Shown here piece after piece: positions 7,526-40,924 of a stretch of 40,960 nt of DNA. A program made the translations under genes and the position numbers. Each line of letters begins with the position of its first letter. Position 1 is the stretch's first letter. The notes beneath the pieces are model-generated. The model was not told where the DNA came from. It ran no database searches and was given only the letters and a program-made list of their open reading frames with translations. This DNA comes from Spirochaetaceae bacterium (lineage in GTDB: Bacteria > Spirochaetota > Spirochaetia > DSM-27196 > SLAA01). The DNA lies in contig PWQX01000181.1 in the NCBI GenBank assembly GCA_003556605.1, positions 1 through 40,960 of the forward strand. Reading direction: 5' to 3'.

Positions 7526-7533
7526 GCGAATCC

Positions 7534-10500
7534 TCACTGCGGCGAATCCCCTTCGGGGAGCCCGGGCGCTTCGAAAGTCGCCTGAGCTTCCGGATGGTCG
7601 GGGTCAACCCGCCGAAATAGATCTCGCACTCGATCGAACTGGCGCGTGTAGAGAACCGAGAGCCCGGTGCTGGTAACGGTGCCTTCAACCGGACCTTCGT
7701 ACTGCCTGAGCCGAAAACCGCGCAGACGATATCGTCCGTCTTCAGTGACCAAGTACTCCAGGGTTACATCGCCGGCAAACTCGCCTGCTTCAGCCTCCCG
7801 CCGCCGCTCGCCCTCAACGTCGAACCGGCCGCCCAGTTGTACAATAAGCCGATCACCGAAAAGCCGTTGCGTGATGTCAACGTGTACTTCGGTCCTGCCC
7901 TCGGGACCCTCCTCAGTGTATTCCTCATACGATTCAACGTCGAAACGCAGATCGGTCCCGGGCAGGATCCGACCCGCCATGACGTTCAATTGCTGTGTCA
8001 GAATCCGCGCTGCGCTCGAGCGCCCGCCCGGAACAAGCGCTGCAGTTTGATCGACACCGGTTAAGTCGTCGGCGATGAACTGGTTCAAGACGATGAGCGC
8101 GAAAGCCTGTCGATTTCGATCGGCCTCGTGCTCGTTGAGCTGCTGGATTCGCCTGTAGACAGCGCCGCCAAGCGCCCCGCGTTGTTCGGCCGGCATGTCG
8201 AGCTCAAAGCTGATGTCCGGTTCGGTTAACCGCCCCCGCATTATCAGCACAACCTGAAACGGGAGCTCTGTGCGGTAGACTCCCCGCTCTTGATCAGGTA
8301 CGTAAGCGGCAAAGAGGTTCTCAGGCGACGCGCGCACGCTGTAAACCGCATCGATATTAAGCTCTGCGTCGAGGGGGTCGCCGGTCCAGACCACTGTGCT
8401 TCCCGGTTGAATCACGAATCTCCGCCTCGTGATGGTGTAAAACGAAAGCTCGTAGTCTCCTTGCGAGACTGTGTAGCTGCCGGACAACGTGACGGTCCCA
8501 CCCGGCACCACGGCAAGGCTGAGGTTCCCGCCACCGCGCAGCCTAAGCCGATCACCGGATTGCGGATCGACAATCATCGTTAACCGCGTGTCCGGGTCTA
8601 TGACAACGTTCACGCTGAGCTCAAGTCTGTCAAAGGTGGCATCAAACATGTCCTCTGCGCGCAGCTCAAGCGCGCGGTCGGTACCGCGTGGCACCGCGTA
8701 CCGTTCGTCAGCGTCAACAAAGCGGACCACGCCTTCGCCTTCGTGCACAATCGGTGCGCGGTCGGGCATAACGAACGTTACGGCGCTGCCCTGTTGCAGC
8801 CCGGCGCTGCCTTCGACTACCGGCTCATCACGCGTCCCGCTGATTTGTAGGTCGCTGTCTATCACGATGCGGCCGTACAACTGGTCGTTGTGAGCAGCGG
8901 CGGTATCCATCACGATAAAGCGATCGGCACGAACCGCTAGCTTAAAGCGCAGTGCGCCGGCCGGAGACGGGAACTCAATATCGCCTTCTGCCACCGCTTT
9001 GTTCCCGTCCGTGTCGTGCACCACGAAATCACTGAGCACCAACACACCATCCGAAAACGCAATGCGCTGATCATCGACGAAGAACGCAGTGTTAAGCGCT
9101 GCCGGCGCAACTCTCGCCTCGTGAAACCCGAGCTCACCTTCGCCGAATACCGGATCCTCCCTACCGCTATCAAAACCAACCCACCCTGACCCGTTCATAT
9201 AACCCTCGGTGTCGGTTAACTCCGCGAGCGTTACAGCCTCAAGGTATGCGAGATCTAACCGGCCGATTTCGAACTCAATACGGGCAATACCTTCAGATGG
9301 TATCGCGTAACCGGTTCCGCGAGCCCGATTCGCTTGATGCTCGATTGCAAAGCCGCCGGTGAACCGTCCGGGGATTCGGTTGTCCAGCTCCAAACTCACA
9401 CGGCCGAGCTCAAGCCCCTCAATTCGTAAGTCGGAAACCGCGAGCTCGGCGACCACCAGAGGCTCTGACTCTCGCAGCAGAACCTCGACGCTACCGTTCA
9501 GGAGTCCGGAGAGACGCTCTTCCGGCACACCCAGTGGCCCGCCGATCGTGGTTAGCGCAACGTTGGAGATATCGATTTCAAGCGGCTCGGTTCCGTCGGG
9601 CTCTTCGCGGGTACGCGCGCTGACCCATTGTTCACCGCTTCGCACTCTGATGTTGTGAACCGTAATCCGGTCGCGCTCAAACCGTATCTCGTGGTCCTCC
9701 GGTGCAACCCACTGCTCGCCGCGGATAATGATATCATCCGGCATCAGACGCGCGACCACCGCTGTCTCGCGCGCCTCAAGGACAGTTCCCAGCCGCAATA
9801 GCTCTCGCTCCTCGGCGTCCTGCAACGAAAGCCGCGCCTCCCACCGGTTATCACGCGCCGCCCCGTACACTCTCGGGGAGTGCATGAACAGAGCCCCTGC
9901 CGCAACGCCGGCTGCTTGCAGATCATACGAGAGCTCGTCAGTGTCTGAACGCGCTGTGGCCTGCAGTCCGGCAATGTCAACCGCGCCGTAGCTTACACGA
10001 TCGAAGGCGAGCCCAGCGTCCAGTATTCGCTCAGCGCCGTCGAACTCAACCCGCAGCGAACCAGGCGACAGCGCTTGCAGCTCAGGAAAGAATCCGGCCA
10101 GCACCGGATAGAGCTCCTTGATATCAGCATGCAGCACGAATTGGTGCTCCGGCTTCCGCTTGCGAGGTGTCTCGGGTAGGCGGAAAAACTGCTGAGCGTG
10201 ACCGTGCAGTACGCCGGGCAGCGCCGTGAGGGGCACGGTTGAAGTGAGCTCGCCGCCGGCAACCTCCGACTCGAGCACAATATGCGTGTGTCCCGGGACA
10301 TTGTGAGTACGAACCTCTGCCGACGACACCGAACCCGTCTTCTGCCCGTGCCGGACGCGGAGGTCGCTGAGACCAAAGCGTCCGGTCACGGTGTCCGGGG
10401 AGCCGCCGGCAGCGTCGGCAGTGAAAGTGCCGGCAACCTGTACCATGTGGGGCACGATACCCAAGAGCCCCAACTCGGCACGTTCCACCACAAGCTCACC

Positions 10501-12144
10501 GCGATAGCGCGGCTCTCGGGCGAGCAGATCCAGCTTTGCCCACCCGGCGCCCGCAAGCCGCGCGTCGTCGATAGCGCCACGCGCTGCTATCCGCCCTGCC
10601 TGGTATTGCGCCTCGATCGTCACGTCCTGCAGCACCTCGCCGTGTACTTCGACATCCGGCAGGTGGGCAGACACTTCGGCAGTTAAGGTCTCGAGCGTGC
10701 GCCCGCGCCCCTCGGCGCGGAGCTGCAACGCCGCCGCCCCGAGCGGTGTGTCTATCGGCAGCACGCGCCCCACCTCAAACCGTTCAGTTTCAAGCCCAAG
10801 GCGATAGGCGTACCCGTCGACCCCGCCGACCCGATCAGCTTCACCGGCAATCGCAAGATCCCCGTAGGTGCTACGTGCGCGCAACTGCAGCGCGAGCTGC
10901 CGTCGCCCTCCCCGCAACCGCCCGGAAAGCGCCAAGTGCTCCGGCACCGGAGCCTCACGTATCTGCCCGGGAGAAACGAAATAGGCAAGATCGCGGCGGT
11001 CAAGCTCCAGCGCTTCGACGTTGAGCTCCATGCTGCCGTCGCGCCCTTTCGCCAGATCGCGCAGCACTGCTGCACCCCGGAAGCTGCTATGCTCCCCCAA
11101 TCGCAGCCTTAGCTCCGGGACGGCCAACTCGGCCACACCGCCATGTGCCTTGCCCTGAACCCTTATCTGAGGGTACCGGACCTCCGGGATTCCGGGGGTT
11201 CCAAAGTAGTCTTGGAACGCGATCCCGGGAAACGCGTTCGCGAGCTCTTGTATGCTTAGGTGCAGCTCGTCGATATCGACGCTAGCAACTAAATCCTCGG
11301 GCGCTTCGGGCAACTCGCCCCAAGCGGATACCTCAGCAGAGAGATCGGCGACGATAAGACTGTTCTGCGTTCGCGCGCGCAGTTGTTCAGCACGGGCTCC
11401 GGAACGCGAAACCGTCACCAACGCCGACAGCTCGGTCAGCTCTATACCGTCACCGGCGAGACCCGTGCGTTCGGTAAAAGACATGTCCCGAACCCGTCCG
11501 CTCACCTGCCCGCCGGCGATCTCCAAACCGCTGACGTTCAATGAGAGATCCTGAAGCCGCCACTCGGAGTGTCCGCCGGTTCCCGCGAGCCGCACCTGCG
11601 AGCGGGAGAGCTCGGCTGTCCGGATCTCCACACGCCAAGGGTCTATCCCGCGACTATCCTCAGGGTGCCGACGGCGCACCGCGTCGCGATCGGCCTCGAG
11701 CCCGGTACGACGCCGTAATTGCTCGACTAGCGTAATGAGGTTCACCTTACCGGTTGTTTCGCAGCGATAGAAGTAAGCTCCGGCTCGGTCGACAGCCGCG
11801 TGCGTGATTACAACACGTCGTTGCAGCAAAGCCGGCAGGCTCACGCGCACCGTAATCTCGCCGCTGCGCCACAGCTGTTCACCCTCCGGATCGATGATGG
11901 CGGCCCCAAAGACGCGAAGCTCCGCGACTCCCCGGAGATCCATGGGCACGTGCACGCGCACGCGCTCAAACGAGATCTCACTTCCGGTCTTCTCCGATAG
12001 CCGGCTCGCCGCATGCTCGGCCGCAAACTGCTGTACAACCGGTAAGGTGGCAAACCACACTCCGAGCACCAACGTCAACAGAAGTGCGATAGATACGTAT
12101 ACCAAGGCGCGAACGCCTCGCCGTACAGGGCTAAACCTACCCAC
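7534..12144 (-). CDS. tamB: TamB-type translocation and assembly module protein
   Basis: A 1536-residue inner-membrane-anchored periplasmic protein of the AsmA-like/TamB superfamily. One N-terminal helix (about residues 9-31) is followed by a very long repetitive beta-rich region and the C-terminal TamB (DUF490) domain, seen in phrases such as GGTVTLSGSYTVSQGDYEL and ITQRLFGDRLIVQLGGRFD. Such proteins form a hydrophobic groove across the periplasm and support barrel insertion or lipid transport to the outer membrane. I chose GTG 12144 because GGAGG lies nine bases upstream and the anchor then starts the protein; the frame remains open to 12273. The downstream tamA-type gene starts within or just after its stop codon, so the two are co-expressed. 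Confidence 0.88.
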   Translation of the reverse strand: MGRFSPVRRGVRALVYVSIALLLTLVLGVWFATLPVVQQFAAEHAASRLSEKTGSEISFERVRVHVPMDLRGVAELRVFGAAIIDPEGEQLWRSGEITVRVSLPALLQRRVVITHAAVDRAGAYFYRCETTGKVNLITLVEQLRRRTGLEADRDAVRRRHPEDSRGIDPWRVEIRTAELSRSQVRLAGTGGHSEWRLQDLSLNVSGLEIAGGQVSGRVRDMSFTERTGLAGDGIELTELSALVTVSRSGARAEQLRARTQNSLIVADLSAEVSAWGELPEAPEDLVASVDIDELHLSIQELANAFPGIAFQDYFGTPGIPEVRYPQIRVQGKAHGGVAELAVPELRLRLGEHSSFRGAAVLRDLAKGRDGSMELNVEALELDRRDLAYFVSPGQIREAPVPEHLALSGRLRGGRRQLALQLRARSTYGDLAIAGEADRVGGVDGYAYRLGLETERFEVGRVLPIDTPLGAAALQLRAEGRGRTLETLTAEVSAHLPDVEVHGEVLQDVTIEAQYQAGRIAARGAIDDARLAGAGWAKLDLLAREPRYRGELVVERAELGLLGIVPHMVQVAGTFTADAAGGSPDTVTGRFGLSDLRVRHGQKTGSVSSAEVRTHNVPGHTHIVLESEVAGGELTSTVPLTALPGVLHGHAQQFFRLPETPRKRKPEHQFVLHADIKELYPVLAGFFPELQALSPGSLRVEFDGAERILDAGLAFDRVSYGAVDIAGLQATARSDTDELSYDLQAAGVAAGALFMHSPRVYGAARDNRWEARLSLQDAEERELLRLGTVLEARETAVVARLMPDDIIIRGEQWVAPEDHEIRFERDRITVHNIRVRSGEQWVSARTREEPDGTEPLEIDISNVALTTIGGPLGVPEERLSGLLNGSVEVLLRESEPLVVAELAVSDLRIEGLELGRVSLELDNRIPGRFTGGFAIEHQANRARGTGYAIPSEGIARIEFEIGRLDLAYLEAVTLAELTDTEGYMNGSGWVGFDSGREDPVFGEGELGFHEARVAPAALNTAFFVDDQRIAFSDGVLVLSDFVVHDTDGNKAVAEGDIEFPSPAGALRFKLAVRADRFIVMDTAAAHNDQLYGRIVIDSDLQISGTRDEPVVEGSAGLQQGSAVTFVMPDRAPIVHEGEGVVRFVDADERYAVPRGTDRALELRAEDMFDATFDRLELSVNVVIDPDTRLTMIVDPQSGDRLRLRGGGNLSLAVVPGGTVTLSGSYTVSQGDYELSFYTITRRRFVIQPGSTVVWTGDPLDAELNIDAVYSVRASPENLFAAYVPDQERGVYRTELPFQVVLIMRGRLTEPDISFELDMPAEQRGALGGAVYRRIQQLNEHEADRNRQAFALIVLNQFIADDLTGVDQTAALVPGGRSSAARILTQQLNVMAGRILPGTDLRFDVESYEEYTEEGPEGRTEVHVDITQRLFGDRLIVQLGGRFDVEGERRREAEAGEFAGDVTLEYLVTEDGRYRLRGFRLRQYEGPVEGTVTSTGLSVLYTRQFDRVRDLFRRVDPDHPEAQATFEAPGLPEGDSPQ

Positions 12145-12242
12145 CAGGACGGGTCCTCCCACGGCATTCGCAATTGCCCGGCGCCCTAATGCGGCGCCCG
12201 CCGATCCGGTGCCGGTGAGCCGAAATGCCGCTGCGTACCGTA

Positions 12243-12251
12243 AGCATAACA
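12243..12251 (-). promoter_or_regulatory. Possible extended -10 promoter for the tamB operon
   Basis: On the minus strand the motif TGTTATGCT (extended -10, TGnTATGCT) lies about 100 nt upstream of the GTG start at 12144. The -35 region is weak. A transcript beginning near 12236 would exclude the upstream part of the open frame, which agrees with the chosen start. Confidence 0.35.
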
Positions 12252-12320
12252 CGGCCGCCGACCCATAAGACACCCCCGAACAGGCTCCCGCAAAGACTGC
12301 TGGAGTTTGGCGCCCCCTGC

Positions 12321-22584: not shown

Positions 22585-24219
22585 ATGCGCAACACGCAGA
22601 TTCGGGCGGTTTTGTTTGATTTCGACGGGACCCTAACGAAGCCGGGCGCGCTTGATTTCGAGCACCTCCGGCGGGAACTCGAATGTCCGCCGGGCATCGC
22701 GATTCTCGAGTACCTTGAGACACTACCGCAAGGCCGGCCCCGCGAAGCGAAGCTCGACCTCCTCGATGCCTACGAGTTGCAGGCCGCAGCTACAAGCGAA
22801 CCGAACAGCGGCGCCGAACGCACTGTGTTTCAGCTACGCGAAATGGGGCTACGGGTCGGGATGTTTACCCGCAACACGACTGCCGCGGTCGCGCGAAGCC
22901 TCGAGAACTTCACGCACCTGAATAAGAGCGATTTCGCGGTCTTACTTACTCGAGACGATAGCGGACCGGTCAAACCGCACCCGGAGTCGGTACCGCACGC
23001 CGCTGCGTTACTCGGGGTGGAGCCCTATGAAGTGATGGTGGTTGGTGACCATCGCTTCGATATTGAGGCGGCACGCAGCGCAGGCAGCTGGAGCTGCCTA
23101 TTGTCGAATGCCGCGGACCTCGATCGAAGCGCACGTGACCTCGGGGCCGACTACGCGATCGCAAGCCTCGATGAGCTGCCGGCTCTACTCACTCGGCATC
23201 GACCGCTGGCGGTGGGGAAGCTCCCGCGCGAGCAGCTTGCGCCGTTGTTGGACGAGCTGCAGACAGCCGACTCGGCTGCACGCGTACTAATCGGTCCAAA
23301 GATTGGAGAGGATACCGCCGTGGTGCACGGCGACAAGGATGAGGTTATCGTTCTGAAAAGCGATCCGATTACCTTTGCAACCGATCAGGTTGGCCGGTAC
23401 GCGGTGTGTGTCAGCGCCAACGATCTGGTGTGCTCGGGCGCCGAACCCAATTGGTTCCTGGCCGCGGTCTTAATGCCCCCGAACAGCACTCTGTACGCCG
23501 TTGAAACCGTGTTTCACCAAATTGAATCCGCCTGCCGCGAGCTGGGGATTACAGTAGTCGGTGGGCATACCGAGATAACCGAGGCGGTTACGCATGCGTT
23601 GGTGTGCGGGACGATGGCCGGCACGGTTCACCGCGACGCATTGGTCGACAAACGCGCGATCCAGCCAGGAGATGCGATCATACTCACGAAGTGCGCCGGT
23701 CTTGAGGGTACCGCCATACTCTGCACCGAGTTCGCGGGACGCTTACTTGACGAGGGGATACCCGAGACCGAGCTGCAGAAGGGCCGCGCCTTTGTGCAGG
23801 AGCTTTCGGTAGTCCCCGAGGCACAGATTGCGACTAAGATCTCGGGACTGCACGGAATGCACGATGTTACCGAGGGCGGCGTGATCACTGCGCTGCAGGA
23901 GCTTGCCCAAGCGGGCAACGTCAGTCTGACGGTGGACCTCAAGCAGATTCCTACGGCGGAGATAACAAAACGAGTGTGCAGCGCGCTTGCACTTGACCCG
24001 CTCGGCTTGATTGGCTCGGGGTCCCTGGTGATTGCCGTCGCGAACCAGTCTCGCGAAGCCATGCTTGCGGCGCTTGAAATGCACGGGGTGCCCGCCGCCG
24101 GTATCGGCGAAGCCGGCTCGGGTCCGGCGGGCGAGCTGCGTGCTTTGTACGACGGCCGCCCGGTCGAGTGCCCAAGCTTCGCGGTAGACGAAATCGCACG
24201 TCTGTTCTCACAGATGTAG
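22585..24219 (+). CDS. Fusion of HAD phosphatase and AIR-synthase (HypE/PurM-like) domains
   Basis: A 544-residue two-domain protein. Residues 1-205 form a HAD-superfamily hydrolase: DFDGTLT with Asp12 and Asp14, a conserved Lys in GPVKPHPES, and VVGDHRFDIEAA as motif IV, like phosphoglycolate phosphatases. Residues about 210-544 match AIR-synthase-related ATP-binding proteins of the HypE/ThiL/SelD group: KIGEDTAVV, LKSDPITFATDQVGRYAV, SANDLVCSGAEP, VVGGHTE and HDVTEGGV. It lacks the C-terminal PRICG tail of true HypE, so carbamoyl transfer for hydrogenase assembly is unlikely, and no hydrogenase gene is near. An ATP-dependent synthase-plus-phosphatase pair acting on one metabolite is plausible (inference). 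ATG 22585 follows a weak GGGG. Confidence 0.88.
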   Translation: MRNTQIRAVLFDFDGTLTKPGALDFEHLRRELECPPGIAILEYLETLPQGRPREAKLDLLDAYELQAAATSEPNSGAERTVFQLREMGLRVGMFTRNTTAAVARSLENFTHLNKSDFAVLLTRDDSGPVKPHPESVPHAAALLGVEPYEVMVVGDHRFDIEAARSAGSWSCLLSNAADLDRSARDLGADYAIASLDELPALLTRHRPLAVGKLPREQLAPLLDELQTADSAARVLIGPKIGEDTAVVHGDKDEVIVLKSDPITFATDQVGRYAVCVSANDLVCSGAEPNWFLAAVLMPPNSTLYAVETVFHQIESACRELGITVVGGHTEITEAVTHALVCGTMAGTVHRDALVDKRAIQPGDAIILTKCAGLEGTAILCTEFAGRLLDEGIPETELQKGRAFVQELSVVPEAQIATKISGLHGMHDVTEGGVITALQELAQAGNVSLTVDLKQIPTAEITKRVCSALALDPLGLIGSGSLVIAVANQSREAMLAALEMHGVPAAGIGEAGSGPAGELRALYDGRPVECPSFAVDEIARLFSQM

Positions 24220-25252: not shown

Positions 25253-25469
25253 GCACTTGCTCCTATTGAGATTGCCGGCGCGTGCGTCACAACCGGCTGC
25301 CAGCTCATTGGTCGCTAAAATGTCCGTGATTTCGACCCCAATCGTCAACACACTCTCGTGCAAGCGCAGGCGTTAGCGCCGATCATCCGCTGCAGATCAT
25401 CAACGGGAAACTCAGATCAACGACTCAACAGGGACATCACCGAGCGTTTCAACGAATTCAACTGCGAGC

Positions 25470-25498
25470 TTGCTTATCCAAGACATCACCAGTATCAT
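25470..25498 (+). promoter_or_regulatory. Promoter upstream of the 243-residue membrane protein gene
   Basis: TTGCTT at 25470-25475 and TATCAT at 25493-25498 are exactly 17 nt apart, giving a start near 25505 and a leader of about 57 nt ending in a very strong ribosome site. The rest of the 309-nt gap 25253-25561 shows no gene; it must also hold the promoter of the divergent VOC gene, which I cannot place. Confidence 0.5.
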
Positions 25499-25561
25499 AA
25501 GGTGTGGCGAATTTTAGCAAGTAGTGGACCCGGCACCAACACTGCCGGAAGGAGGGACCAA

Positions 25562-26293
25562 ATGATTAGCCGCGCTATGTTTCGCGATGCAACTACGATC
25601 GCGCGAGAAAACGTCATAATTTTAGTTCCCACCATTGCCGCGTCGGTTGTCTTCGGAGTGCTCTCGCTCGTCGCCCGCCCCGCCCCTGCTCCGGGAACGA
25701 TGCTGCCCGGTTACGCAACGGGGCCCGGAGCGATGATCGCGCGAGGGCTGGGTGCCGCAACAGTGCTATTTTTGGTCGGTGTAGTTATTGCGCTCCTGGC
25801 TCACGGGATGACCCTTGCGATGGCTAAGCAGAGCATCGCTGGACAAAAGCCGACGCTCGCCAGCGGCTTTCAAGAAGCAAAGGGCCGCATCGTCGCGCTC
25901 GCTGTCGCTGCGGTGATTTCAGGCGTGCTGATCAGCATCGGCATGATGCTGCTGCTGTTGCCCGGGCTTATCTTGAGCTATCTCTTGATGTTCACCTTCG
26001 CGGCGGTGATCGCATCCGGTCTCAGTGCGCCGGCGGCAATCAGAAAGAGTTTTCGTTTGACAACCGCTGAGTTCGGCGACTCCGCGCCGTTGTTCTTGAT
26101 CATCATTGCACTCGGCGTTTTGTTCGCCGCGGCCTCCTTAGTTTTGAACGTGATACCGGCGTTGGGGCCGCTCCTGAGCATGCTTCTCGGTGGTGTTTAC
26201 ACCGGGTACGCATCAGTGTTGCTGTTACTGACTTATCGCAGGCTCGAAGGCCCTGGACCCCAGACACAGGAGGAACCTCAACCGGAGGGCTGA
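25562..26293 (+). CDS. Polytopic membrane protein, GDPD-membrane-domain-like
   Basis: A 243-residue protein with about six hydrophobic helices. ATG 25562 is chosen because GGAAGGAGGG lies just upstream; the open frame reaches back to 25358 but that part crosses the promoter. A cytoplasmic segment AMAKQSIAGQKPTLASGFQEAKGR is followed by LLPGLILSYLLMFTFAAVIASGLSAPAAIRKSFRL, close to the pattern of the membrane domain found in some glycerophosphodiester phosphodiesterases and YckC/DUF7847-type proteins (weak family call). The C-terminus is proline-rich and polar. Function unknown; it is followed 46 nt later by the AsmA-GT51 gene and may be co-transcribed. Confidence 0.75.
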   Translation: MISRAMFRDATTIARENVIILVPTIAASVVFGVLSLVARPAPAPGTMLPGYATGPGAMIARGLGAATVLFLVGVVIALLAHGMTLAMAKQSIAGQKPTLASGFQEAKGRIVALAVAAVISGVLISIGMMLLLLPGLILSYLLMFTFAAVIASGLSAPAAIRKSFRLTTAEFGDSAPLFLIIIALGVLFAAASLVLNVIPALGPLLSMLLGGVYTGYASVLLLLTYRRLEGPGPQTQEEPQPEG

Positions 26294-26339: not shown

Positions 26340-28979
26340 ATGTATAAACGTAGCGCCGTTTGCGGTACCGCTGCAGCGCTCGCCGTTGCAGCGGGCCTGA
26401 TGCTCGCAGTCCATTTCTGGCTGATTCCTTCCGTCAGCGCGCGCATCGCGCGCGCGCAGCTTGGCCGGCTGACCGAACGGTACGGCGTTTCCGTTGAGTT
26501 TGCCGACGCCGGTTATTCGCGACGCGAGGGACTGGTGTTACACCACGTTAAAGCCCACGAAGACGACGGCCGGCAGATTCTCGGCGCCCGGCGGCTTTCA
26601 ATCCAAACAAACCTACCGGGACTGCTGCTCGGCAAACGCGAGATTCAATCGCTTAGCTTGGAGGAGCCGCTTCTGCGACTACACGGTGACACGCACGCTG
26701 TAGTATTGGCTGCGCGTCGCATCGGCGTTGCCGGACGCCTTGAACTCAACGCGGTTCAGCTGCGCGTCGGCCTTGTCCTTGCCGGGCGCGGCGACCAATT
26801 AACCGAGCTGTTTGAGGCCGAGGAGGCCGCGCTCGTAACGAACGGACTTCCCGACAGCCTGGCGGACCTCGATGAGCTCGATATCAGCCTTCTGCGCCTT
26901 ATCGAACCCACAGCCCACACGCGCATTCGTTCAGGCCGCACTGTCGAATGGGATGCGGCGGCCGCGATCATGCAGGACCTGCTGAGCCGGCTGCATTCTG
27001 CAACTGGAGCGGAAGCCTGCGCCTCCGGCGATCATTGCATTGCTCAGCCCGAGTCGGAGCTCCCGGAGCCGCAGACCTCACGGCAAGACTCCGCACTCCT
27101 TCGTGGTCGCCTGTGGTCGGTTTTCGGCCGATCCGTGTTCCCAAACGAGCTTGTCATCAATGGAGCTGCTATCTCTGTTTCCTATGATACCACATACGGG
27201 CTCGATCCCGCTGCGCCGCCGGCTGATACGCTCGCGTTTACCGAGCTCAATCTGAACTGGCAGCTGGACCGGCGCCGCGACCTGGTGCAACTCAACAGCA
27301 GCGGGCGCATCACCGCAGACGGCAAGGACGCCGGCCGGTGGGTCATCGATCAGGCACTGTGGTATCGAGAACCCATGGTGAGCGGCCGCGCAGAGCTTAA
27401 ACGGCTCAGCCTCCCGGCGCTGACACAACTGGCCGGAGTTCACATAGTCGACACGCCACCGAACGGAACACTCGATGCCGAGCTCACGATGCATCGCAAC
27501 TCTCGTGAGGGTCACACGGAGCTGAACGGAGCTTTCAGATTGCGCGACGCCTCTATACTGCTGCCACACACGGCGCTGGAGGCGGTTGAGATCCCGGATT
27601 TCTCCTACCGCTTTCAGGGTAGGCTTGACCCGCGCGCACCGCTGCCGGCCCCACGCCTGATACACCCCCTGAAGAAAGCCGACGATGAGCCCCGCACCAC
27701 CGAGCTCAGTACGGTTGCCGCTCCACAACGGCGCGGCAGTTTCGTCATTGAGGAAGGCCGCCTACAGCTTGGGTCTGTTAAGGCCGAGGTTCGTGCCGCC
27801 GTACACGGATTGCGCGGATTGTGCACCTTACCGAAACGTCTTGATTTGCAGGTTGCGCTTCCGCGAACTGCTACCCAGAGTATTTTAGATAGCATTCCGC
27901 AGGCGATAACCGGAGAGCTCGCCGAGGTGAAGCTGGAAGGCACTTTCGGCTGGGACTTTGATCTTGAGCTGCCGCTTGACAGGGCCGCGGCCATGCGTTG
28001 GGTCGCCCGACCCGATCTGAGAGACTTTTCCGTCAGGGCTATTCCGGAAAGCATAGACGTCTTCAAGCTGAACCGGGCGTTCACGCACACCATCGTCGAC
28101 GAGTCTGTCGACTACCAACGCACGGTCGCCATTCCGCCGCCGCGAGCGGTACCGGATCGCTGGTTACGCGACAACGGCGGACTTACCGAAGCACAGATTG
28201 CCTCCAAGCGACTGCGTCGCGTGCTATACAACCCCACCGACCTCGATACGCGCTTGCCTAACAGGCCTTTTCTGCTTGCTCATCGTGAGCACGATGCTTC
28301 ACACGGCACAGCCCGTGACGCCCGTTACGTTTACCTCGCTGAGATGTCCGATTGGGTCCCGCGCGCAATTATGACCGGTGAAGACAATTACTTCTTCCGG
28401 CATAAGGGCATAAACTGGCCGGCGATTAAATATGCGGTGCAGTTCAACCTGGAAGCTGGAGAATATCAGCTCGGTGCGAGCACCATCTCTATGCAGTTAG
28501 TGAAGAACCTGTTTCTCAGCCACGATCGCGTACTGGCTCGCAAACTACAGGAGCTGTTCTTGGTTTACCTGATGGAACAAGTAGCCCACGTACCCAAAGA
28601 ACGCATTCTCGAGGTGTACCTCAACGTCATCGAGTTCGGTCCGGGCGTTTTCGGAATTCACGATGCGGCGCAGTATTACTTCAACAAGAGCCCGAGCGAG
28701 CTCGAGGTGCTGGAGGCGGTTTGGTTGGCCGCAATAGCACCGAGCCCCAAACACTATCACGCATTGTTTACGGACAGCGACGGTTCCTCCGTCTGGACCT
28801 CCCGGATGGATCATCATCTGGACCGGCTGAAAACGCGCAACCGCATTACTCCCGAGCGCTACGAGGCGGCGCGTGAGCAAGCGCTACGGTTCGATCCTCG
28901 TACCCGCTTTGAGACCACTGACCTCCGCCCCGTGCTCGATCAGCGGGCCTCCCCCTTGTCACCGCGGTTCACTCCTTAG
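26340..28979 (+). CDS. AsmA-like / GT51 peptidoglycan glycosyltransferase fusion
   Basis: Numbered from ATG 26340 (879 residues; GTG 26337 is equally possible; no clear ribosome site). A single N-terminal anchor (about residues 8-30) is followed by roughly 600 residues rich in beta strands that read like an AsmA/DUF3971-type periplasmic domain (for example VSVEFADAGYSRREGLVLHHV and the LSIQTNLPGLLLGKREIQSLSLEEPLLRL run). Residues about 660-830 are a GT51 transglycosylase: GEDNYFFRHKGINW with catalytic Glu681, GASTISMQLVKNLFL and EVYLNVIEFGPGVFGI. No transpeptidase domain follows, as in MtgA. It should polymerise lipid II; the AsmA-like part is unusual for this family and could bind lipid or guide the enzyme (inference). 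Confidence 0.85.
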   Translation: MYKRSAVCGTAAALAVAAGLMLAVHFWLIPSVSARIARAQLGRLTERYGVSVEFADAGYSRREGLVLHHVKAHEDDGRQILGARRLSIQTNLPGLLLGKREIQSLSLEEPLLRLHGDTHAVVLAARRIGVAGRLELNAVQLRVGLVLAGRGDQLTELFEAEEAALVTNGLPDSLADLDELDISLLRLIEPTAHTRIRSGRTVEWDAAAAIMQDLLSRLHSATGAEACASGDHCIAQPESELPEPQTSRQDSALLRGRLWSVFGRSVFPNELVINGAAISVSYDTTYGLDPAAPPADTLAFTELNLNWQLDRRRDLVQLNSSGRITADGKDAGRWVIDQALWYREPMVSGRAELKRLSLPALTQLAGVHIVDTPPNGTLDAELTMHRNSREGHTELNGAFRLRDASILLPHTALEAVEIPDFSYRFQGRLDPRAPLPAPRLIHPLKKADDEPRTTELSTVAAPQRRGSFVIEEGRLQLGSVKAEVRAAVHGLRGLCTLPKRLDLQVALPRTATQSILDSIPQAITGELAEVKLEGTFGWDFDLELPLDRAAAMRWVARPDLRDFSVRAIPESIDVFKLNRAFTHTIVDESVDYQRTVAIPPPRAVPDRWLRDNGGLTEAQIASKRLRRVLYNPTDLDTRLPNRPFLLAHREHDASHGTARDARYVYLAEMSDWVPRAIMTGEDNYFFRHKGINWPAIKYAVQFNLEAGEYQLGASTISMQLVKNLFLSHDRVLARKLQELFLVYLMEQVAHVPKERILEVYLNVIEFGPGVFGIHDAAQYYFNKSPSELEVLEAVWLAAIAPSPKHYHALFTDSDGSSVWTSRMDHHLDRLKTRNRITPERYEAAREQALRFDPRTRFETTDLRPVLDQRASPLSPRFTP

Positions 28980-29390: not shown

Positions 29391-30407
29391 TCAGTCGAGA
29401 TAGCGAGCTTTGTTCTCAAGGTGCTCAGCGAAGGTTCGTGCGAATACCGTCTCGCCGGTCGGCTTGTTGAGGAAGAAGAGATACGGGTTGTCGTCGGGGC
29501 TAGCCGCAGCGCGGATAGCTTTCATCCCGGGGTTTCCAATAGGGCCCGGTGGGAGACCGGCATAGCGGTAGGTGTTGTAGGGATCATCGACGGCGATATC
29601 AGCAAAGGTCGGCTGAAGCATTCTCGTACCAAGTACGTAATTCACGGTAGCGTCAGATTCGAGCCGCATGCCGCGATCCAGCCGTTTGCTGAACACGCCG
29701 GCGACCTTGGGCATGTCTTCGGTCGGCGACTCCGCTTCCACAATGGAAGCAAGCGTGACGATCTCGCGCAGCGATAGCTCCTGCTGTGCAATCGCAGTCC
29801 GGGTTTTTTCGTCGAGACGGCGAGCAAACGTCCTCAGCTTGCGGCGCACCACCGTTTCAGGCGACATATCGGGAAACAGACGGTAGGTCTCCGGAAATAG
29901 AAACCCTTCAAGTGTGATGTCGTCGTCGAGCTCGTCGAGAAGCGGATCAATACCGCGGTAAGCATCCCGCATAAATGCCGCGTCCAGGAATCCCTCACGG
30001 TCGACAATCCCCGCGCGCGCGAGCCGAGCTGCAATCAGCTCACGCTGCCACCCCTCCGGTATCGTAACCCTGACTGAGTCATCGATAACATTACCCGCTA
30101 CCATATCGTGAATGATATCCACCGGGCGCATGCCCGGAACGATCTGATACCGGCCGGACTGTATCGCTGCCGCGTCCCCGGTAACACGCGTATACAGCCT
30201 GAGAATCACGGCGCTCGGCACGAGATCGCGTGTTTCGAGCTCAGCCGCTACCGTCGCCATGCTTGCGCCCGACTCGACCGTGATCTCCACGGGCTCGCCC
30301 CGATACGGCTGGTACAAACTGTGCCGCCCCCCAAAAAAGACGGCGGCCATGACGGTAACAATTACAACCGCCGTTACCGCGATCAATCCGACTCCCTTGC
30401 GCGTCAC
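29391..30407 (-). CDS. mltG: Endolytic peptidoglycan transglycosylase MltG
   Basis: A YceG/MltG enzyme that cleaves nascent glycan strands at the outer face of the inner membrane and is thought to end glycan polymerisation. With GTG 30407 (GGAG eight bases upstream) it has 338 residues; the GTG at 30455, overlapping the upstream stop codon as GTGA, is the alternative and adds 16 residues. A membrane helix spans about residues 5-25, a LysM-like subdomain follows, and the catalytic region reads ASIVEAESPTEDMPKVAGVF, with the Glu after the Val as active-site acid. DPYNTYRYAGLPPGPIGNPG is the family signature. It is last in a four-gene operon. Confidence 0.94.
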   Translation of the reverse strand: MTRKGVGLIAVTAVVIVTVMAAVFFGGRHSLYQPYRGEPVEITVESGASMATVAAELETRDLVPSAVILRLYTRVTGDAAAIQSGRYQIVPGMRPVDIIHDMVAGNVIDDSVRVTIPEGWQRELIAARLARAGIVDREGFLDAAFMRDAYRGIDPLLDELDDDITLEGFLFPETYRLFPDMSPETVVRRKLRTFARRLDEKTRTAIAQQELSLREIVTLASIVEAESPTEDMPKVAGVFSKRLDRGMRLESDATVNYVLGTRMLQPTFADIAVDDPYNTYRYAGLPPGPIGNPGMKAIRAAASPDDNPYLFFLNKPTGETVFARTFAEHLENKARYLD

Positions 30408-30451
30408 CTTCTTTACTCCATCAACTCGTTCGACCGATTGCGGGCCCGCAG

Positions 30452-30880
30452 TCACGACATACCGAACCCGAGCGCGTACACCGTAGCAACCGTCCCGCCC
30501 AGCAATACGCCGACAATAATCTCGGGCAATGTGTGACCTGACAGCTCGGAGACCTCAGGATCCCCGCGCTCTCGTAACAGCCTATTCAGCATCTTCGCTT
30601 GCCGTTGGACCGCACCCCGTAGCCGATATGCGTCGTAGATTACGATCAGACTGAACACCGCCGCAACGGCGAAAACATCCGAGTCCAGCCCGCGTCTGAA
30701 CGCGATGCCTACCAACAGCGCTGTTGCGAAAGCCGAGTGCGCGCTCGGGAAACCCCCGGCGTTTATGAAATAGTGCAGTTGTGGACGGCCCGCCCGAACC
30801 GAGTGCACGATCACTTTCAAGGTCTGTCCCAGAACTTGGGCCCCGACAGCGACCAGCAGCGTATCGGATATTCCGGTCAT
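30452..30880 (-). CDS. DUF212 (YuiD-like) divergent PAP2 membrane protein
   Basis: A 142-residue integral membrane protein of the DUF212 family, related to acid phosphatases and vanadium haloperoxidases. GGFPSAHSAFATAL keeps the PSxH motif and SGHTLPEIIVGVLLG keeps the SGHxxxE motif, the two histidine sites of the PAP2 fold, with YDAYRLRGAVQRQA between them. Such proteins are presumed membrane phosphatases, possibly acting on lipid pyrophosphates, but direct evidence is lacking. It is third in the operon, 26 nt after the Crp-like gene and overlapping the possible start of mltG, which fits an envelope role. Confidence 0.93.
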   Translation of the reverse strand: MTGISDTLLVAVGAQVLGQTLKVIVHSVRAGRPQLHYFINAGGFPSAHSAFATALLVGIAFRRGLDSDVFAVAAVFSLIVIYDAYRLRGAVQRQAKMLNRLLRERGDPEVSELSGHTLPEIIVGVLLGGTVATVYALGFGMS

Positions 30881-30906: not shown

Positions 30907-31557
30907 TCAGCTTTCGTCTCGCTTCTTCCGCCGCGAATTGACGAAGCGCGCAAACTCGTTGATGTTCTTCACCACAATTCTATCGGTGTAGATCTCGAGT
31001 CGTCGCTGCGTTTGAAACTGATTCAGCACATCGCGGCTGACCTCGGGTGATATCCCCGCCCAGTGTCCAATGTCGCCAGGCGTGGTATAGAACACGCGCT
31101 CGGATCCTTCAGGTTTCGATCCTGCCTGCGACTCGTCCAACATTAAGAACACGTCGGCAACCTTAGCATGGTTGTCTTCAAGGGTAAGTATCATGAACCG
31201 CCGCCGTTGATCGTAAATTCGCTTCGTGAACAGCTTCAACAGCTTCAGCGCAATTTGCGGGTTGCCGCGCATCAAAACCTCAAAGTTCGCCCGGTTGAAC
31301 TCAAGCGCTTTAACCGGGTCCAAACAGATGGCGTTAGCTGAGCGCGGCGCTTCTTCCAATATCGCCATCTCACCAAAAATCTCGCCCGGATGAAGAATAT
31401 CGATCGTCTTCTCGATATCCCCCATAATCTTGGATATCTGCACCCGACCGTCCTGAATCAGGTAAAACGCGTCACCCGGTTCGTACTCACAAAAAATGAT
31501 GTTACCTTTATCGAAATGAACCGCAAATCGTTCAAATGCATCGAGGTTGAGCTCCAT
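30907..31557 (-). CDS. Crp/Fnr-type cyclic-nucleotide-binding regulator
   Basis: A 216-residue protein with a cNMP-binding domain (about residues 1-120) and a C-terminal winged helix (about 150-210). The phosphate-binding cassette GEIFGEMAILEEAPRSANA keeps the Glu and Arg that contact the cyclic nucleotide in CRP, so ligand binding is likely. The recognition region reads TPGDIGHWAGISPEVSRDVLNQF, and NINEFARFVNSRRKKRDE is a basic tail. It starts one base after the stop codon of the cNMP-TPR gene, so the two are translationally coupled. It may sense a nucleotide signal and control envelope genes, including its own operon (inference). Confidence 0.9.
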   Translation of the reverse strand: MELNLDAFERFAVHFDKGNIIFCEYEPGDAFYLIQDGRVQISKIMGDIEKTIDILHPGEIFGEMAILEEAPRSANAICLDPVKALEFNRANFEVLMRGNPQIALKLLKLFTKRIYDQRRRFMILTLEDNHAKVADVFLMLDESQAGSKPEGSERVFYTTPGDIGHWAGISPEVSRDVLNQFQTQRRLEIYTDRIVVKNINEFARFVNSRRKKRDES

Positions 31558-31558
31558 C

Positions 31559-32599
31559 TCAGGCTCCCTCCAAGTTGCGCAGCGCGTTGTTGACTTTGCG
31601 CTTCAACGCTTCGGAGACACCGGGACGCGACAAGATCTTCTTGTAAAACCCGCCGGCGCGGTTCGTGTCCCCACTGTGCTCGTAACTTTGTCCCAAGTAA
31701 TAGAGCGCATCGTCTAAGTCAGGCATCTTAGGATACCGCTGCACAAGGGCCGTATAGTGCCGGATGCAAGAATCGTAATGACCGAGGTTGAACAAACAGC
31801 GTCCGATCTCGAACATCGACTTCACCACGTATTCGCGATCCTCGGAAGTGTCAACGATCGCCTTGAACTGCTTCATCGCGCCCGTGTAGTTACCTTGGCT
31901 GAAACTGGAGACCGCCGTATAGTATTGTTTTGCCACCGGATCCAACTCACCTGTCTTCGCCGAACCTGTCCCGCGCCCACCGGCCGATTCACGCCCGGTC
32001 TCGGAGCTCGCGCTCGCCCCGCTTTCCGCACCCCGCAAGCCGGGGCCACGGCCCACACCATACTGAGACACATACTGCTCTGCCTGCTGAGCGTGCTTGT
32101 TCGCAAGCTGGTGATACGCACCCGAGGGGTAATAGGTGAGGTACTTCTGGAAGGCATACAGCGCTTTCTCGTACTCCTTCTTTTTCATGTAGTACTCGCC
32201 GATGCGAAACAAACCCAGTTCGGGATCTGCCTGCTCGCCTTCGGCCAGAAGCCCGCGAACCTTTGTGTGTAAGCGCCGCAACTGGTTGGAAAACACGTTC
32301 AGCATCTTCATCACGATGCGCGAGTTCGAGAGCGCGAGCTGCTCGAATTCAGGCACGGAAAACACCACCACGTGCGAATCTGCGAGCGCTACCGCGTTCT
32401 CCTCACGCGGGTACTTCCCGAGAGCCGACTTGACGCCGAAAAACTCGCCGGTTTGGATGAAATCACGCACCTGCTCGCCGGTCTCAATATCGTTTGAGTT
32501 GAGGCTAACCCGTCCTCCTTTCAGAATAAAGATACGGTCGCTCACATCCCCTTGGAAGTAAATCACCGAGTTAGCTTTGTATGTCATGGCTTTCGGCAC
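31559..32599 (-). CDS. Cyclic-nucleotide-binding domain protein with TPR-like repeats
   Basis: A 346-residue protein. Residues 1-115 form a cNMP-binding domain starting NSVIYFQGDVSDRIFILKGG; its cassette GEFFGVKSALGKYPREENA keeps the Arg region but lacks the Glu seen in CRP, so ligand binding is doubtful. Residues about 125-175 and 215-345 carry TPR-like helices (YYMKKKEYEKALYAFQKYL, YYTAVSSFSQGNYTGAMKQF, DALYYLGQSYEHSGDTNRAG), separated by a Gly/Ser-rich linker. It has no DNA-binding domain and probably works as a protein-binding partner. GTG 32599 has CAGGAG seven bases upstream. First gene of the operon; comparable proteins are, to my knowledge, found in spirochaetes. Confidence 0.88.
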   Translation of the reverse strand: MPKAMTYKANSVIYFQGDVSDRIFILKGGRVSLNSNDIETGEQVRDFIQTGEFFGVKSALGKYPREENAVALADSHVVVFSVPEFEQLALSNSRIVMKMLNVFSNQLRRLHTKVRGLLAEGEQADPELGLFRIGEYYMKKKEYEKALYAFQKYLTYYPSGAYHQLANKHAQQAEQYVSQYGVGRGPGLRGAESGASASSETGRESAGGRGTGSAKTGELDPVAKQYYTAVSSFSQGNYTGAMKQFKAIVDTSEDREYVVKSMFEIGRCLFNLGHYDSCIRHYTALVQRYPKMPDLDDALYYLGQSYEHSGDTNRAGGFYKKILSRPGVSEALKRKVNNALRNLEGA

Positions 32600-36265: not shown

Positions 36266-38887
36266 ATGGCTCTCACGTACAAGCGCCGAATCGTGCTCAC
36301 GGTTCTGATTGTATCTGTTGTAACCGTGGCTGTTGTTGTTGGTACGGCTACCGGCATGGCGCTGGCATCCATTCAGAATGCGGCCGGGGTTGCAGCCGGG
36401 CCACGCGACTATGCTGCGTTACCGTCGCAGTTGCTCGATAGTCAAGGTCGTCTCATTACCGAGTTCTTTGCGGAAGAAAACCGTACTTTGGTTACTATCG
36501 ACGAGCTGCCGAAGCATCTCATTTATGCCCTTATAACCCGGGAAGACCAATCATTTTTTGAGCATCGGGGATTTAGTATTCGCGGAACCATTCGGGCTGC
36601 GTGGAATCTGGTGACCGGGCGATACGTTTCGGGTGGCAGCACTATATCTCAGCAGTTGGCCGGGCATCTGTACGCCGACCGGCAAGAGTTCTCTATCGCA
36701 CGGAAGCTTCGGGAACTGTGGTGGGCCCTGCAGTTGGAGCGCAGCCTCACAAAATACGAGATATTAGAACAATATCTTAACACCATGTTTTTCGGCCATG
36801 GAACCTACGGTGTTGAAGCTGCCTCGCGCTACTACTTTGGACACTCGGCAACCGAGTTGAGCATGGCCGAGTCGGTGATGCTGGTAATACAGCTGGCCAA
36901 TCCTGCGATGTACTCACCAATCCGCAGGCCGAACGAGGCGCGGCGCATGCAGCGCACAATCCTCAATCGCATGGTTCACCGCGGGTACGCAACCCAGGAA
37001 GAGGTTGATCTATCGTTTACCCAATACTGGAACGATTACGACTTCACGCGTGCCAGTACCTCAACCGCCTTTTTCGACCGTGAAGACCGCGCGCCTTACT
37101 TCAGCGAGTACGTGCGTTACCGCCTGGAGAATGAGCTCTTGCTCGGCGCTATGGACATCAACCGCGAGGGATTCGTCGTCCACACCACCCTAGATCTCGA
37201 GTTCCAAGACCATGCCGACCGCTTGATGCGCGAAGGAATCTCGCGCGCCAATACGGCGTACCGTGAGGGTCGCGAGCGGCGCGTCGAATACGGCGATGAA
37301 CTCGTTCCTGTCGTCGAGATGCTGTCGCTTGCTTTCGATATTGACAGTATCCGAGTGGGAGACGCCACTCAGCGGCGCCGCGCACGCGAGTACTATCAGG
37401 AGCGGCTCAATCCGGTGTTGGATATCGTGTCGTTGATGTTCTCCCCCGGGGACAACGACGGCATCCGCCATGCCGGTCGAGTAGGCTATGTAATGCAGGA
37501 GCAGCAAGCCCAGCGCACCCAGGTTGAAGGGGCGCTAGTGACGATCGAAAACCGGACCGGCCACATCAAGGCCATGGTCGGAGGGTCCGAGTTTGAGTCG
37601 CGTAACCAGTTCAACCGTGCGGTAGATGCACGACTGTTACCCGGGTCTGCGTTCAAACCCTTGTATTATGCTGCCGCGATAGAATCCCGCGCGATCACTC
37701 CGGCAACCATGATCTACGATTCACCGGTGGTATTCTGGAACGACGACGGGTCGCCGTATACTCCGGCCAACTTCCGCGGCGAGTGGCGCGGCCCGGTACT
37801 CGCACGTGAGGCGCTCTCTACCTCCATGAACGTACCATCCCTACGCGTGCTCCAGCGCGTTGGGTTCACCGAGGCACTTAACACCTCGGCACGGCTACTG
37901 GGAATTCCCGAGCGCGACATGGTAAACCGCAACCTTGTCCGCCGTTATCCAGTTGGGTTAGGCGTAGCGTCGGTCTCGCCTCTTGAGATGGCGCGAGCGT
38001 TCGCAACCTTTGCGAACGAAGGCCGTGCGGTCGAACCTATCGCGGTGCGCTACATCGAGGATCGTCAAGGGCGACTCGTGTTAGAGCACGAAAAGGAAGT
38101 GCGCGAGGAACAACGGCGGCGCAGGGGCGATCTGGAGATCGTGACACCGCAAACCGCGTATATCATCACCGACATGCTCAAGTCCGCCGTTACCGGTGGC
38201 ACATTGCGATACGCGCGCTCAATGGCCGGCGGCTTCGACGGTATACCGATGGCCGGGAAAACTGGCACCACGCAGAACTGGGCCGACGCGTGGACGGTTG
38301 GATACTCACCCTACTACACTACCGCGGTTTGGCTGGGCTTTGACCGCGGCGGCGGCAACTCATTGGGCGTTGATCAAACCGGTGCCATCGCAGCCGGTCC
38401 TATCTGGGGACGCATGATGCGCGCTATCCATGCTGATCATGAACCGATTGAGTTCCCCCGCCCCGTTACCGGCATCAGCGAAGTAGAAGTGAGCACGCGC
38501 TCAGGCCTGCTTCCGCCCGAGCATTACAGTGGCTCCACGCGAGAGGAGCTCTTCCTCACCGGCAGCGAACCTCGCGAGTATGACCGTTTGGAAGAGTTTG
38601 AACGTGCACAGACTACCCGTCTTGTAGACCGCTTGCGTCGTGACGTGGACTCCAGCAGTTACTCGCTCGACCGCCAGGTGGATTTCCGTTTAGATCTTGA
38701 TTTGGATCTTGATCTTCGCTTCGAACGGGGTGTGCGGCTGAATGACGACCTTGATCTTCACTATCTTGACGGTGAGCAACAGCGCGAGGTAGAGGCAGGT
38801 TCCGAGGCTGACGAAACTCGGTTTCAGCTCGACGCTCCCAGTTTCGACGCTCCCTCCGAGCCTGAAGGAAACCCGCTGCTCGACTAA
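36266..38887 (+). CDS. Class A penicillin-binding protein (PBP1A type)
   Basis: An 873-residue bifunctional enzyme that polymerises lipid II and cross-links the peptides. One membrane anchor (about residues 8-35) is followed by the GT51 domain, with Glu93 in REDQSFFEHRG, GGSTISQQLAGHLY and EQYLNTMFFGHGTYGVEAA. The transpeptidase domain has Ser461 and Lys464 in GSAFKP, Ser520 and Asn522 in STSMN, and Lys665-Thr-Gly in GKTGTT, so all three motifs are intact. A stretch of about 100 residues between the domains (around 340-430) is charged and helical. The C-terminal tail is acidic and low in complexity, with a run of Leu-Asp repeats at about residues 809-818. It is separated from the M23/PEGA genes by a terminator. 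Confidence 0.95.
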   Translation: MALTYKRRIVLTVLIVSVVTVAVVVGTATGMALASIQNAAGVAAGPRDYAALPSQLLDSQGRLITEFFAEENRTLVTIDELPKHLIYALITREDQSFFEHRGFSIRGTIRAAWNLVTGRYVSGGSTISQQLAGHLYADRQEFSIARKLRELWWALQLERSLTKYEILEQYLNTMFFGHGTYGVEAASRYYFGHSATELSMAESVMLVIQLANPAMYSPIRRPNEARRMQRTILNRMVHRGYATQEEVDLSFTQYWNDYDFTRASTSTAFFDREDRAPYFSEYVRYRLENELLLGAMDINREGFVVHTTLDLEFQDHADRLMREGISRANTAYREGRERRVEYGDELVPVVEMLSLAFDIDSIRVGDATQRRRAREYYQERLNPVLDIVSLMFSPGDNDGIRHAGRVGYVMQEQQAQRTQVEGALVTIENRTGHIKAMVGGSEFESRNQFNRAVDARLLPGSAFKPLYYAAAIESRAITPATMIYDSPVVFWNDDGSPYTPANFRGEWRGPVLAREALSTSMNVPSLRVLQRVGFTEALNTSARLLGIPERDMVNRNLVRRYPVGLGVASVSPLEMARAFATFANEGRAVEPIAVRYIEDRQGRLVLEHEKEVREEQRRRRGDLEIVTPQTAYIITDMLKSAVTGGTLRYARSMAGGFDGIPMAGKTGTTQNWADAWTVGYSPYYTTAVWLGFDRGGGNSLGVDQTGAIAAGPIWGRMMRAIHADHEPIEFPRPVTGISEVEVSTRSGLLPPEHYSGSTREELFLTGSEPREYDRLEEFERAQTTRLVDRLRRDVDSSSYSLDRQVDFRLDLDLDLDLRFERGVRLNDDLDLHYLDGEQQREVEAGSEADETRFQLDAPSFDAPSEPEGNPLLD

Positions 38888-39346: not shown

Positions 39347-40924
39347 TCAGCCGCTCTGTGCCCAGATCTCGTGGAACGTATGCGGTGTTTCGCAATACCG
39401 GCAGACGAAGTCCTCTTCGCTCGAGCGGTAGAACTCAGCTATCACCGGCTCGGCGTGCTGCGGATGAGATATACAGTCGGGATTCCTGCAGCAGATCTCT
39501 TCGAGGTTGTATACCCGCGGCGGCATGCGCAAGCGATACTTCCGTCGCACCTGTTGTTCCGTAATGAGGTTCAGAGTGCAGCCGGGTGCGATGGCACCGA
39601 GCATCTTGATCAGGCGCTCGTCAAACTGTGTAATACCCGGAAGCGAGATGATCCCTTTATACCGGCCGGTCTGCTCTGAGGCAAACACACCGTGGGAGCT
39701 CACACAATTCAATCCGAGAGTCTTTCTGATCTTGTTGACTTGATTCCAGATTGCCTCCGGCTGTTGTCCTGTAGCGATATGGTCGATCACGATTCCGTTG
39801 GAAACTGGTTTGATGCCTACTTTGTACTCACCTTTGGCTCGGGTGCCGGGTCCTGTTTCCTCCACGAAATCATCCGAAAACTCGGGCGGCGTCTGCACCG
39901 TTCCGGTGAAATCATCTCCCAAGCATCCCGCCAACAAGGCGATCTCAATTATCCTGGTGTAATAGCCGTTTACCGCCTGCTCGTCCCAGGCGTTGACTGC
40001 CAGCCCGTCAAGAAACGGCGGGATCACCGGCGTCTCACGGTGGCGCGGTAACGGGTGAAAAAACCGCGTCTGTTGACTGACACGCGGCAAGAACTCACGC
40101 CGAAACGTAACTGCTGCACGCAGCGCAGCGGCTCTATCACGCAGCTTCTCGCCCATGCGCTCGAGCTGCAGACGAGTGAAGTACCACAGCGGCGCAACAT
40201 GATGCTGCCCGAGGTACTCCTCTATCGACTCAAACCAACGCAGCTTGTAACCGTGGTACTCCATCTGCCGCGTGTAGTGGGCAGGCATCGAGATGTCCCG
40301 CGGCGCCACCAAATCAATCTCTACTTCGTGAAACAACCGTAAGCCGTTCACCTTTGAATGCACCGTCCGGCCGTGGAGCAGATCGCCGACCAACGCTAGA
40401 TGAATGTGAGAACGGTCCCAATTCAAACGCTCCAGGAAACTGTACTCATCGAGAAACTCTTGCGTGGGGTGCTCGTGCCGGCCGTCGCCGGCGTTGATAA
40501 ACGCCGGCCGCCGCATTCCGTGACTCTCGCAATACCCGCCAACCGTGTCCTCGAGCCATCGGCAGGTCCCTTCTTGAGGAGTACGCATAACAAAAACCGA
40601 GTCCCGCGAGTACCCTGCGAGCATCTTGACAGTGTCGGTGATACTTTCACTCTTGGCAAACGACGATCCGGCAAGGCCAAACTCATTGACCTTAGCACGG
40701 TGAAACTTGGCAGCATTGCGAAACGATTCCCGGGTACGTGTCGAGTCTTCGAGAAAAATCAGATACACTCCGAGCTCGGGGTCCTGCACACGAAAGCTCT
40801 GAACCTCGGAGGAGTTCGCTCGCATCGCGCGTTTCAGACGTCGCGTCTGCTCATAGAGATACAGTTGTTCGTCAATTGAGAAATCATTGACTACCTGTAT
40901 GGTACGTCCTCGAAAGCTACTCAC
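39347..40924 (-). CDS. pyrBI: Aspartate carbamoyltransferase, fused catalytic and regulatory chains (PyrB-PyrI)
   Basis: Catalyses carbamoyl phosphate plus aspartate to carbamoyl-aspartate, the committed step of pyrimidine synthesis. The 525 residues join two chains that are separate in E. coli. The PyrB part (about residues 1-345) has EDSTRTRESFRNA, which binds carbamoyl phosphate, and HPTQEF. The PyrI part (from about residue 365) has KGEYKVGIKPVSNGIVIDHIATG and ends with a zinc site: Cys-x4-Cys in CRNPDC and Cys-x2-Cys in CRYC, 23 residues apart, the spacing of E. coli PyrI. Such fusions are known in Thermotoga and in treponemes. GTG 40924 has GGAG eight bases upstream. It is convergent with the ParB-like gene. 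Confidence 0.96.
   Translation of the reverse strand: MSSFRGRTIQVVNDFSIDEQLYLYEQTRRLKRAMRANSSEVQSFRVQDPELGVYLIFLEDSTRTRESFRNAAKFHRAKVNEFGLAGSSFAKSESITDTVKMLAGYSRDSVFVMRTPQEGTCRWLEDTVGGYCESHGMRRPAFINAGDGRHEHPTQEFLDEYSFLERLNWDRSHIHLALVGDLLHGRTVHSKVNGLRLFHEVEIDLVAPRDISMPAHYTRQMEYHGYKLRWFESIEEYLGQHHVAPLWYFTRLQLERMGEKLRDRAAALRAAVTFRREFLPRVSQQTRFFHPLPRHRETPVIPPFLDGLAVNAWDEQAVNGYYTRIIEIALLAGCLGDDFTGTVQTPPEFSDDFVEETGPGTRAKGEYKVGIKPVSNGIVIDHIATGQQPEAIWNQVNKIRKTLGLNCVSSHGVFASEQTGRYKGIISLPGITQFDERLIKMLGAIAPGCTLNLITEQQVRRKYRLRMPPRVYNLEEICCRNPDCISHPQHAEPVIAEFYRSSEEDFVCRYCETPHTFHEIWAQSG

Follow-up and report, generated by a model that had tools for sequence, protein, structure and literature searches.

GT51 enzymes require lipid II in the outer leaflet of the inner membrane, and in diderm bacteria it is an open question how the growth of the wall they build is coordinated with the supply of lipid to the outer membrane. 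The Chorein-N/AsmA proteins are lipid-transfer proteins (PMC6791001, PMC8593681); Levine related the AsmA-type N-terminal module to Chorein-N (PMC6791001), and five AsmA-like proteins were identified in Flavobacterium johnsoniae from Escherichia coli AsmA (PMC12045153), in a paper that makes no mention of a transglycosylase or glycosyltransferase. Here we describe a gene of a Spirochaetaceae bacterium, located in a stretch of 40,960 nucleotides that was analysed as a whole (the window), encoding a real and widespread variant of the monofunctional GT51 synthases, anchored in the inner membrane and with a predicted AsmA-like groove between anchor and catalytic domain. No description of such a fusion was found in the open-access literature searched, and the architecture is apparently previously undescribed.

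Architecture of the fusion protein

The features of the gene are given below, with residues counted from an alternative GTG start. Homologues beginning MYKRSAV agree with the ATG at 26340, from which an earlier note on this DNA had counted; its catalytic Glu681 is therefore our E682.

26340..28979, + strand: fusion coding sequence, 879 aa from ATG (880 aa from the GTG at 26337)
26361..26429, + strand: N-terminal hydrophobic anchor, residues about 9-31, after a short basic N-terminus, MYKR (from the sequence and a model helix spanning 3-49)
26439..26684, + strand: AsmA/TamB-type N-terminal (Chorein-N-like) module, residues 35-116 (hhalign and DUF748 alignment)
26718..27104, + strand: low-confidence insert of variable length, residues 128-256 (pLDDT mostly < 50 in both models)
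27147..28133, + strand: second half of the predicted groove, residues 271-599 (long strands running antiparallel, with pLDDT mostly 80-98 in AlphaFold2)
28257..28316, + strand: flexible linker from groove to GT51, residues 641-660 (pLDDT < 50)
28308..28811, + strand: GT51 (Transgly) domain, residues 658-825 (PF00912, E 1.2e-45)
28380-28382, + strand: catalytic Glu E682, within the GT51 domain

The order of domains is thus a transmembrane helix, expected to be oriented N-in and C-out, followed by the AsmA-type N-terminal module, a predicted long antiparallel beta-groove and a C-terminal GT51 domain. The last of these carries GT51 motifs I-IV, including the catalytic Glu: motif II reads GASTISMQLVKN, and is accompanied by RKLQE with E739 and KERILEVYLN with E759. 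Among the homologues E682, D683, H689, K723, R735, K736 and E739 are invariant, as are others, and E759 is conserved. The closest solved GT51 structure is the GT domain of Aquifex aeolicus PBP1a (38% identity, Z 19.4, rmsd 2.5, 183 residues aligned). A Pfam scan found no transpeptidase domain in the fusion, which sets it outside the class A PBPs, and the MtgA model TIGR02070 matches it with E 3.9e-45 and 154.1 bits, under the curated cut-off of 182.65. GT51 domains with these motifs are expected to polymerise lipid II, and from its intact catalytic motifs we infer that the fusion GT51 would polymerise lipid II into glycan strands.

The roughly 600 residues between anchor and GT51 carry no confident Pfam family in the window protein. 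Their sole Pfam match, DUF748, is sub-threshold (E 0.015, 13.7 bits against a cut-off of 50). Taken singly, the window protein is too divergent to pass a curated Pfam threshold for any AsmA-like family, and it is the profile of the family and the relatives that carry the AsmA-like assignment. Among 53 homologues, Pfam identified DUF748 in 37, AsmA in 15, YhdP (formerly DUF3971) in three and YdbH in one, and NCBIfam identified GspN_Lepto in 18, LIC_11026 in 10 and TamB in four; in one relative from the Myxococcota group (L188), DUF748, AsmA and Transgly all score above their curated cut-offs within a single chain. Profile-profile comparison with hhalign matched the family to residues 29-115 of E. 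coli AsmA (E 1.5e-5) and to the N-terminus of the TamB encoded in the window (E 1.8e-5). As the family profile matches the N-termini of both proteins, residues 35-116 correspond to the module tied to Chorein-N, and the succession of an N-terminal transmembrane helix and an AsmA/Chorein-N-type module, recovered by hhalign and by DUF748/AsmA matches in homologues, is that of the AsmA-like superfamily. The second half of the groove by itself gave weak profile matches to E. coli YhdP 590-726 and AsmA 368-420 (E 0.003 and 0.002; probabilities 11-15%) and none to the TamA and PBP1a controls, and DUF748 was found on this half alone in 8 of 32 members. Taken together, the AsmA-like nature of the N-terminal part is well supported. 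The earlier note had read the gene, from its letters, as one anchored protein in which about 600 residues resembling AsmA/DUF3971 proteins precede a complete GT51 domain; the open reading frame, Pfam and the homologue profiles bear out this architecture, and the resemblance is upheld by the homologue family profiles, the AsmA/TamB profile-profile matches and an AlphaFold2 model.

Predicted structure of the groove

The structure prediction that had been proposed as a check was run with AlphaFold2 on an alignment of 53 sequences (mean pLDDT 77.9, pTM 0.74). The model comprises a long N-terminal helix (residues 3-49), long antiparallel strands with short helices, and the GT51 domain, with the insert (128-256) and the linker (641-660) coming out as disordered. 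The strands are amphipathic, with a mean face contrast of 2.15 against 1.20 (sd 0.21) for shuffled sequences, above all 2000 shuffles, and this amphipathicity is maintained across the family; a hydrophobic groove lined by long amphipathic antiparallel strands is predicted. Sequence conservation of the groove is low, and the insert at residues 128-256 varies in length in the family alignment.

Comparison of models with and without GT51 suggests that the C-terminal end of the groove and the GT51 domain pack together, since pLDDT rises from 61 to 96 at residues 571-580 and from 74-86 to 89-95 at residues 601-630 when GT51 is included; the two models used different alignments, making these differences indicative only. 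Against the PDB, the groove matched ApoB-100 first (Z 12.4, rmsd 8.6, 203 residues aligned) and then mostly generic barrels, and fold matches of the whole model include the VPS13 N-terminus (Z 8.1) and LPD-3 (Z 8.7). ApoB-100, VPS13 and LPD-3 are lipid-binding proteins, an analogy which may favour a lipid groove. The PDB matches listed for the groove (Foldseek/VIA), mostly beta-barrels and ApoB, include no AsmA or TamB chain, which neither supports nor excludes the groove assignment.

Distribution, phylogeny and genomic surroundings

A search for related loci with the window sequence alone found nothing. An alignment-based search yielded 80 loci, using GT51 motifs as patterns, one of which contains Met and biases the set toward the Met type; most non-spirochaete loci were retrieved with this motif, which includes Met719. 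A profile of the N-terminal part was dropped as a taxonomic probe, having matched TamB-sized and other AsmA-like proteins, and a profile of the groove/GT51 junction was used instead, read only where both halves were covered. Collecting homologues, as the earlier note had recommended, mapped the same architecture to Spirochaetota, Myxococcota/Bradymonadia and Bacteroidota, with the AsmA-type N-terminal module kept in all three. Matches were found in all eight genomes searched from the same genus and family, with further matches across the order and class; across a Spirochaetota-wide sample, a match spanning both halves occurred in only 3 of 247 genomes. Counting only matches that cover the end of the groove as well as GT51, at least one fusion is present in 13 of 99 Bacteroidota genomes; in the Myxococcota-level group, among the rows listed, 52 of 78 genomes carry at least one, often as two to three paralogues. 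In Spirochaetota the groove varies in length beside a GT51 of constant size, whole proteins measuring between 600 and about 1060 aa. Flavobacterium granuli encodes a 654-aa fusion alongside a short MtgA-type GT51 of 284 aa and a GT51 open reading frame of 769 aa; given this coexistence, the fusion does not simply replace MtgA.

One fusion homologue (L055:7924-9440, in genome G043) lies in two overlapping frames of 386 and 215 aa, perhaps through a frameshift or assembly error. Also, one Lujinxingiaceae genome has two long open reading frames of 1049 and 1404 aa (L167 and L168; G289:C47 and C11) whose GT51 domains diverge strongly (57.7 and 52.6 bits) and whose motif is GGSTLATQ.

Phylogenetic reconstruction placed most fusion GT51 domains in one clade apart from MtgA and class A PBPs, with support of 99/96 in a careful tree of 48 fusion domains and 97 (SH-aLRT) in a quick tree of 71, and in both trees the fusion GT51 fell outside MtgA. 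Within the clade, Spirochaetota members group with Bradymonadia. Several long GT51 proteins of the Myxococcota group with Gln in motif II fall outside the main fusion clade, a placement drawn from a quick tree with few columns; of eight such proteins scanned, four (L183, L188, L189 and L190) carry DUF748, with DUF748/AsmA N-termini. Trees of the sampled clade favour the view that the fusion arose once; as these Gln-type, DUF748-bearing proteins lie outside the clade, fusion or loss may also have occurred repeatedly.

Gene neighbourhoods were uninformative as to function. The neighbours considered were as follows.

25358..26293, + strand: upstream co-directional membrane protein, separated from the fusion by a 43-base gap; no Pfam family
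5210-12273, - strand: adjacent TamA-type Omp85 protein and TamB (TamB at 7534-12273, 1579 aa)
29391-30455, - strand: MltG, near the fusion
36266-38887, + strand: PBP1a, near the fusion

Of 30 Spirochaetota loci, only 4 have a homologue of the upstream membrane protein close to the fusion. Across the relatives' fusion loci we found no conserved neighbourhood and no conserved envelope or lipid/outer-membrane biogenesis partners: recurrent neighbours in Bacteroidota include panC, panD, a RadA-like ATPase and an esterase, and the few that recur in Spirochaetota include no obvious lipid-transport partner. TamB, which had been pointed out as a second AsmA-like protein in the window, is indeed present, and its N-terminus also matches DUF748. 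Its presence weighs little, because about 14 kb separates the fusion gene from the TamA/TamB pair, the neighbourhood is unconserved and the source genome holds at least three further AsmA-like matches elsewhere. We therefore treat the closeness of TamA/TamB, MltG and PBP1a to the fusion as coincidence until shown otherwise.

Other genes of the window also combine domains. PyrB (aspartate carbamoyltransferase catalytic) and PyrI (regulatory) share a single open reading frame at 39347-40924 (-); a 544-aa open reading frame at 22585-24219 (+) fuses a HAD hydrolase domain to an AIR-synthase-related AIRS/AIRS_C pair; and a cNMP-binding domain followed by TPR repeats (31559-32599, -) adjoins a Crp-like regulator (30907-31557).

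Possible functions and comparison with known systems

The best explanation of the pairing, to which we give an even chance of being right, is an anchored GT51 synthase with a lipid-holding AsmA-like groove that tunes strand synthesis. The GT51 domain would polymerise lipid II, while the groove, sitting against it, would hold lipid acyl or prenyl chains like other AsmA-like proteins, and strands would be made where lipid moves into the periplasm, that site tuning their synthesis. The AsmA literature (PMC6791001, PMC8593681) would lead one to expect that such a groove binds lipid; that lipid traffic and wall synthesis are coupled, in whichever direction, is plausible. In favour of this explanation is the persistence of the pairing across deep lineages; against it count the absence of conserved lipid-linked neighbours and the mostly generic barrels among PDB matches of the groove. 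Placement of GT51 after the groove is also geometrically awkward, because lipid II must be reached at the inner membrane; the groove would have to fold back, or else offer lipid or substrate to the enzyme. Being AsmA-sized, the groove probably lacks the length to bridge the periplasm by itself.

The wide variation in groove length beside a constant GT51, the low conservation of groove sequence and the lack of lipid-related neighbours at fusion loci would suit an AsmA-like part that is a mere stalk, or a docking or regulatory domain, positioning GT51 or recruiting partners with no role in lipid handling. We consider this rather unlikely, if deserving of serious attention, as strand amphipathicity is kept family-wide and all three groups retain the AsmA-type N-terminal module. 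An improbable alternative is that the groove handles polyprenyl, be it lipid II, the undecaprenyl tail of the strand or undecaprenyl pyrophosphate to be removed, and that GT51 works off the membrane surface. This would do away with the geometric problem, and is in keeping with a GT51 domain directly following, and apparently packed on, the C-terminal end of the groove and with a GT51 substrate that is itself a long-chain lipid; nothing in the sequence, however, separates prenyl from acyl cargo, and we know of no AsmA-like protein that carries polyprenyl lipids.

That the fusion GT51 has lost its catalytic activity, or works on a different glycan, appears very improbable. Met719 of the window protein occupies the site of Gln136 in motif II of Staphylococcus aureus MGT, where a Gln-to-Glu change abolishes activity (PMC6053601), and Met is found there in 70 of 71 clade members, a count inflated by those loci that came from a search pattern containing M, although almost every one of the 27 Spirochaetota members was recovered through the N-terminus. 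Because Met at this site is shared by some MtgA-type proteins and by two of the four PBP1c-like proteins in the comparison, we do not read it as inactivation, and E682, E739, K723, R735/K736 and E759 are conserved. Finally, a misassembly or a chance read-through of two genes, conceivable in a fragmented source assembly of 296 contigs, has practically no likelihood and is ruled out by the identical architecture in independent genomes of three phylum-level groups, single-contig genomes (G013 and G009) among them.

The recurrence of the pairing across three groups may reflect a physical connection of wall building with lipid traffic. Tentatively, and with the balance of probability against this reading, the fusion could exemplify a widespread class of wall synthase whose peptidoglycan polymerase is either supplied directly by a lipid-transfer groove or acts as the gate of that groove, making lipid flux and glycan synthesis one machine. 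With groove and wall polymerase on one polypeptide in several phyla, such coupling becomes testable through point mutations in a single gene.

Compared with described systems, the fusion resembles MtgA (TIGR02070) in its single GT51, its N-terminal membrane anchor and its lack of a transpeptidase, but has about 600 additional AsmA-like residues between anchor and GT51. With the class A PBPs (PBP1a/1b/1c) it shares the GT51 domain and motifs and the inner-membrane anchor; it differs in lacking a transpeptidase, in its separate GT51 clade and in a GT51 that is C-terminal to the AsmA-like part, whereas that of class A PBPs adjoins the transmembrane helix. AsmA-like proteins (AsmA, TamB, YhdP and YdbH; DUF748) have in common with it the N-terminal transmembrane helix, the AsmA-type module and a predicted beta-groove, but the catalytic C-terminal GT51 is particular to the fusion, the AsmA papers (PMC12045153, PMC6791001, PMC8593681) mentioning none. 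The F. johnsoniae proteins, compared by their published description only (PMC12045153), are likewise AsmA-like proteins of a phylum, Bacteroidota, in which the fusion occurs. Together, these comparisons mark the fusion as a distinct monofunctional GT51 subfamily, of which the family libraries searched recognise only the catalytic domain.
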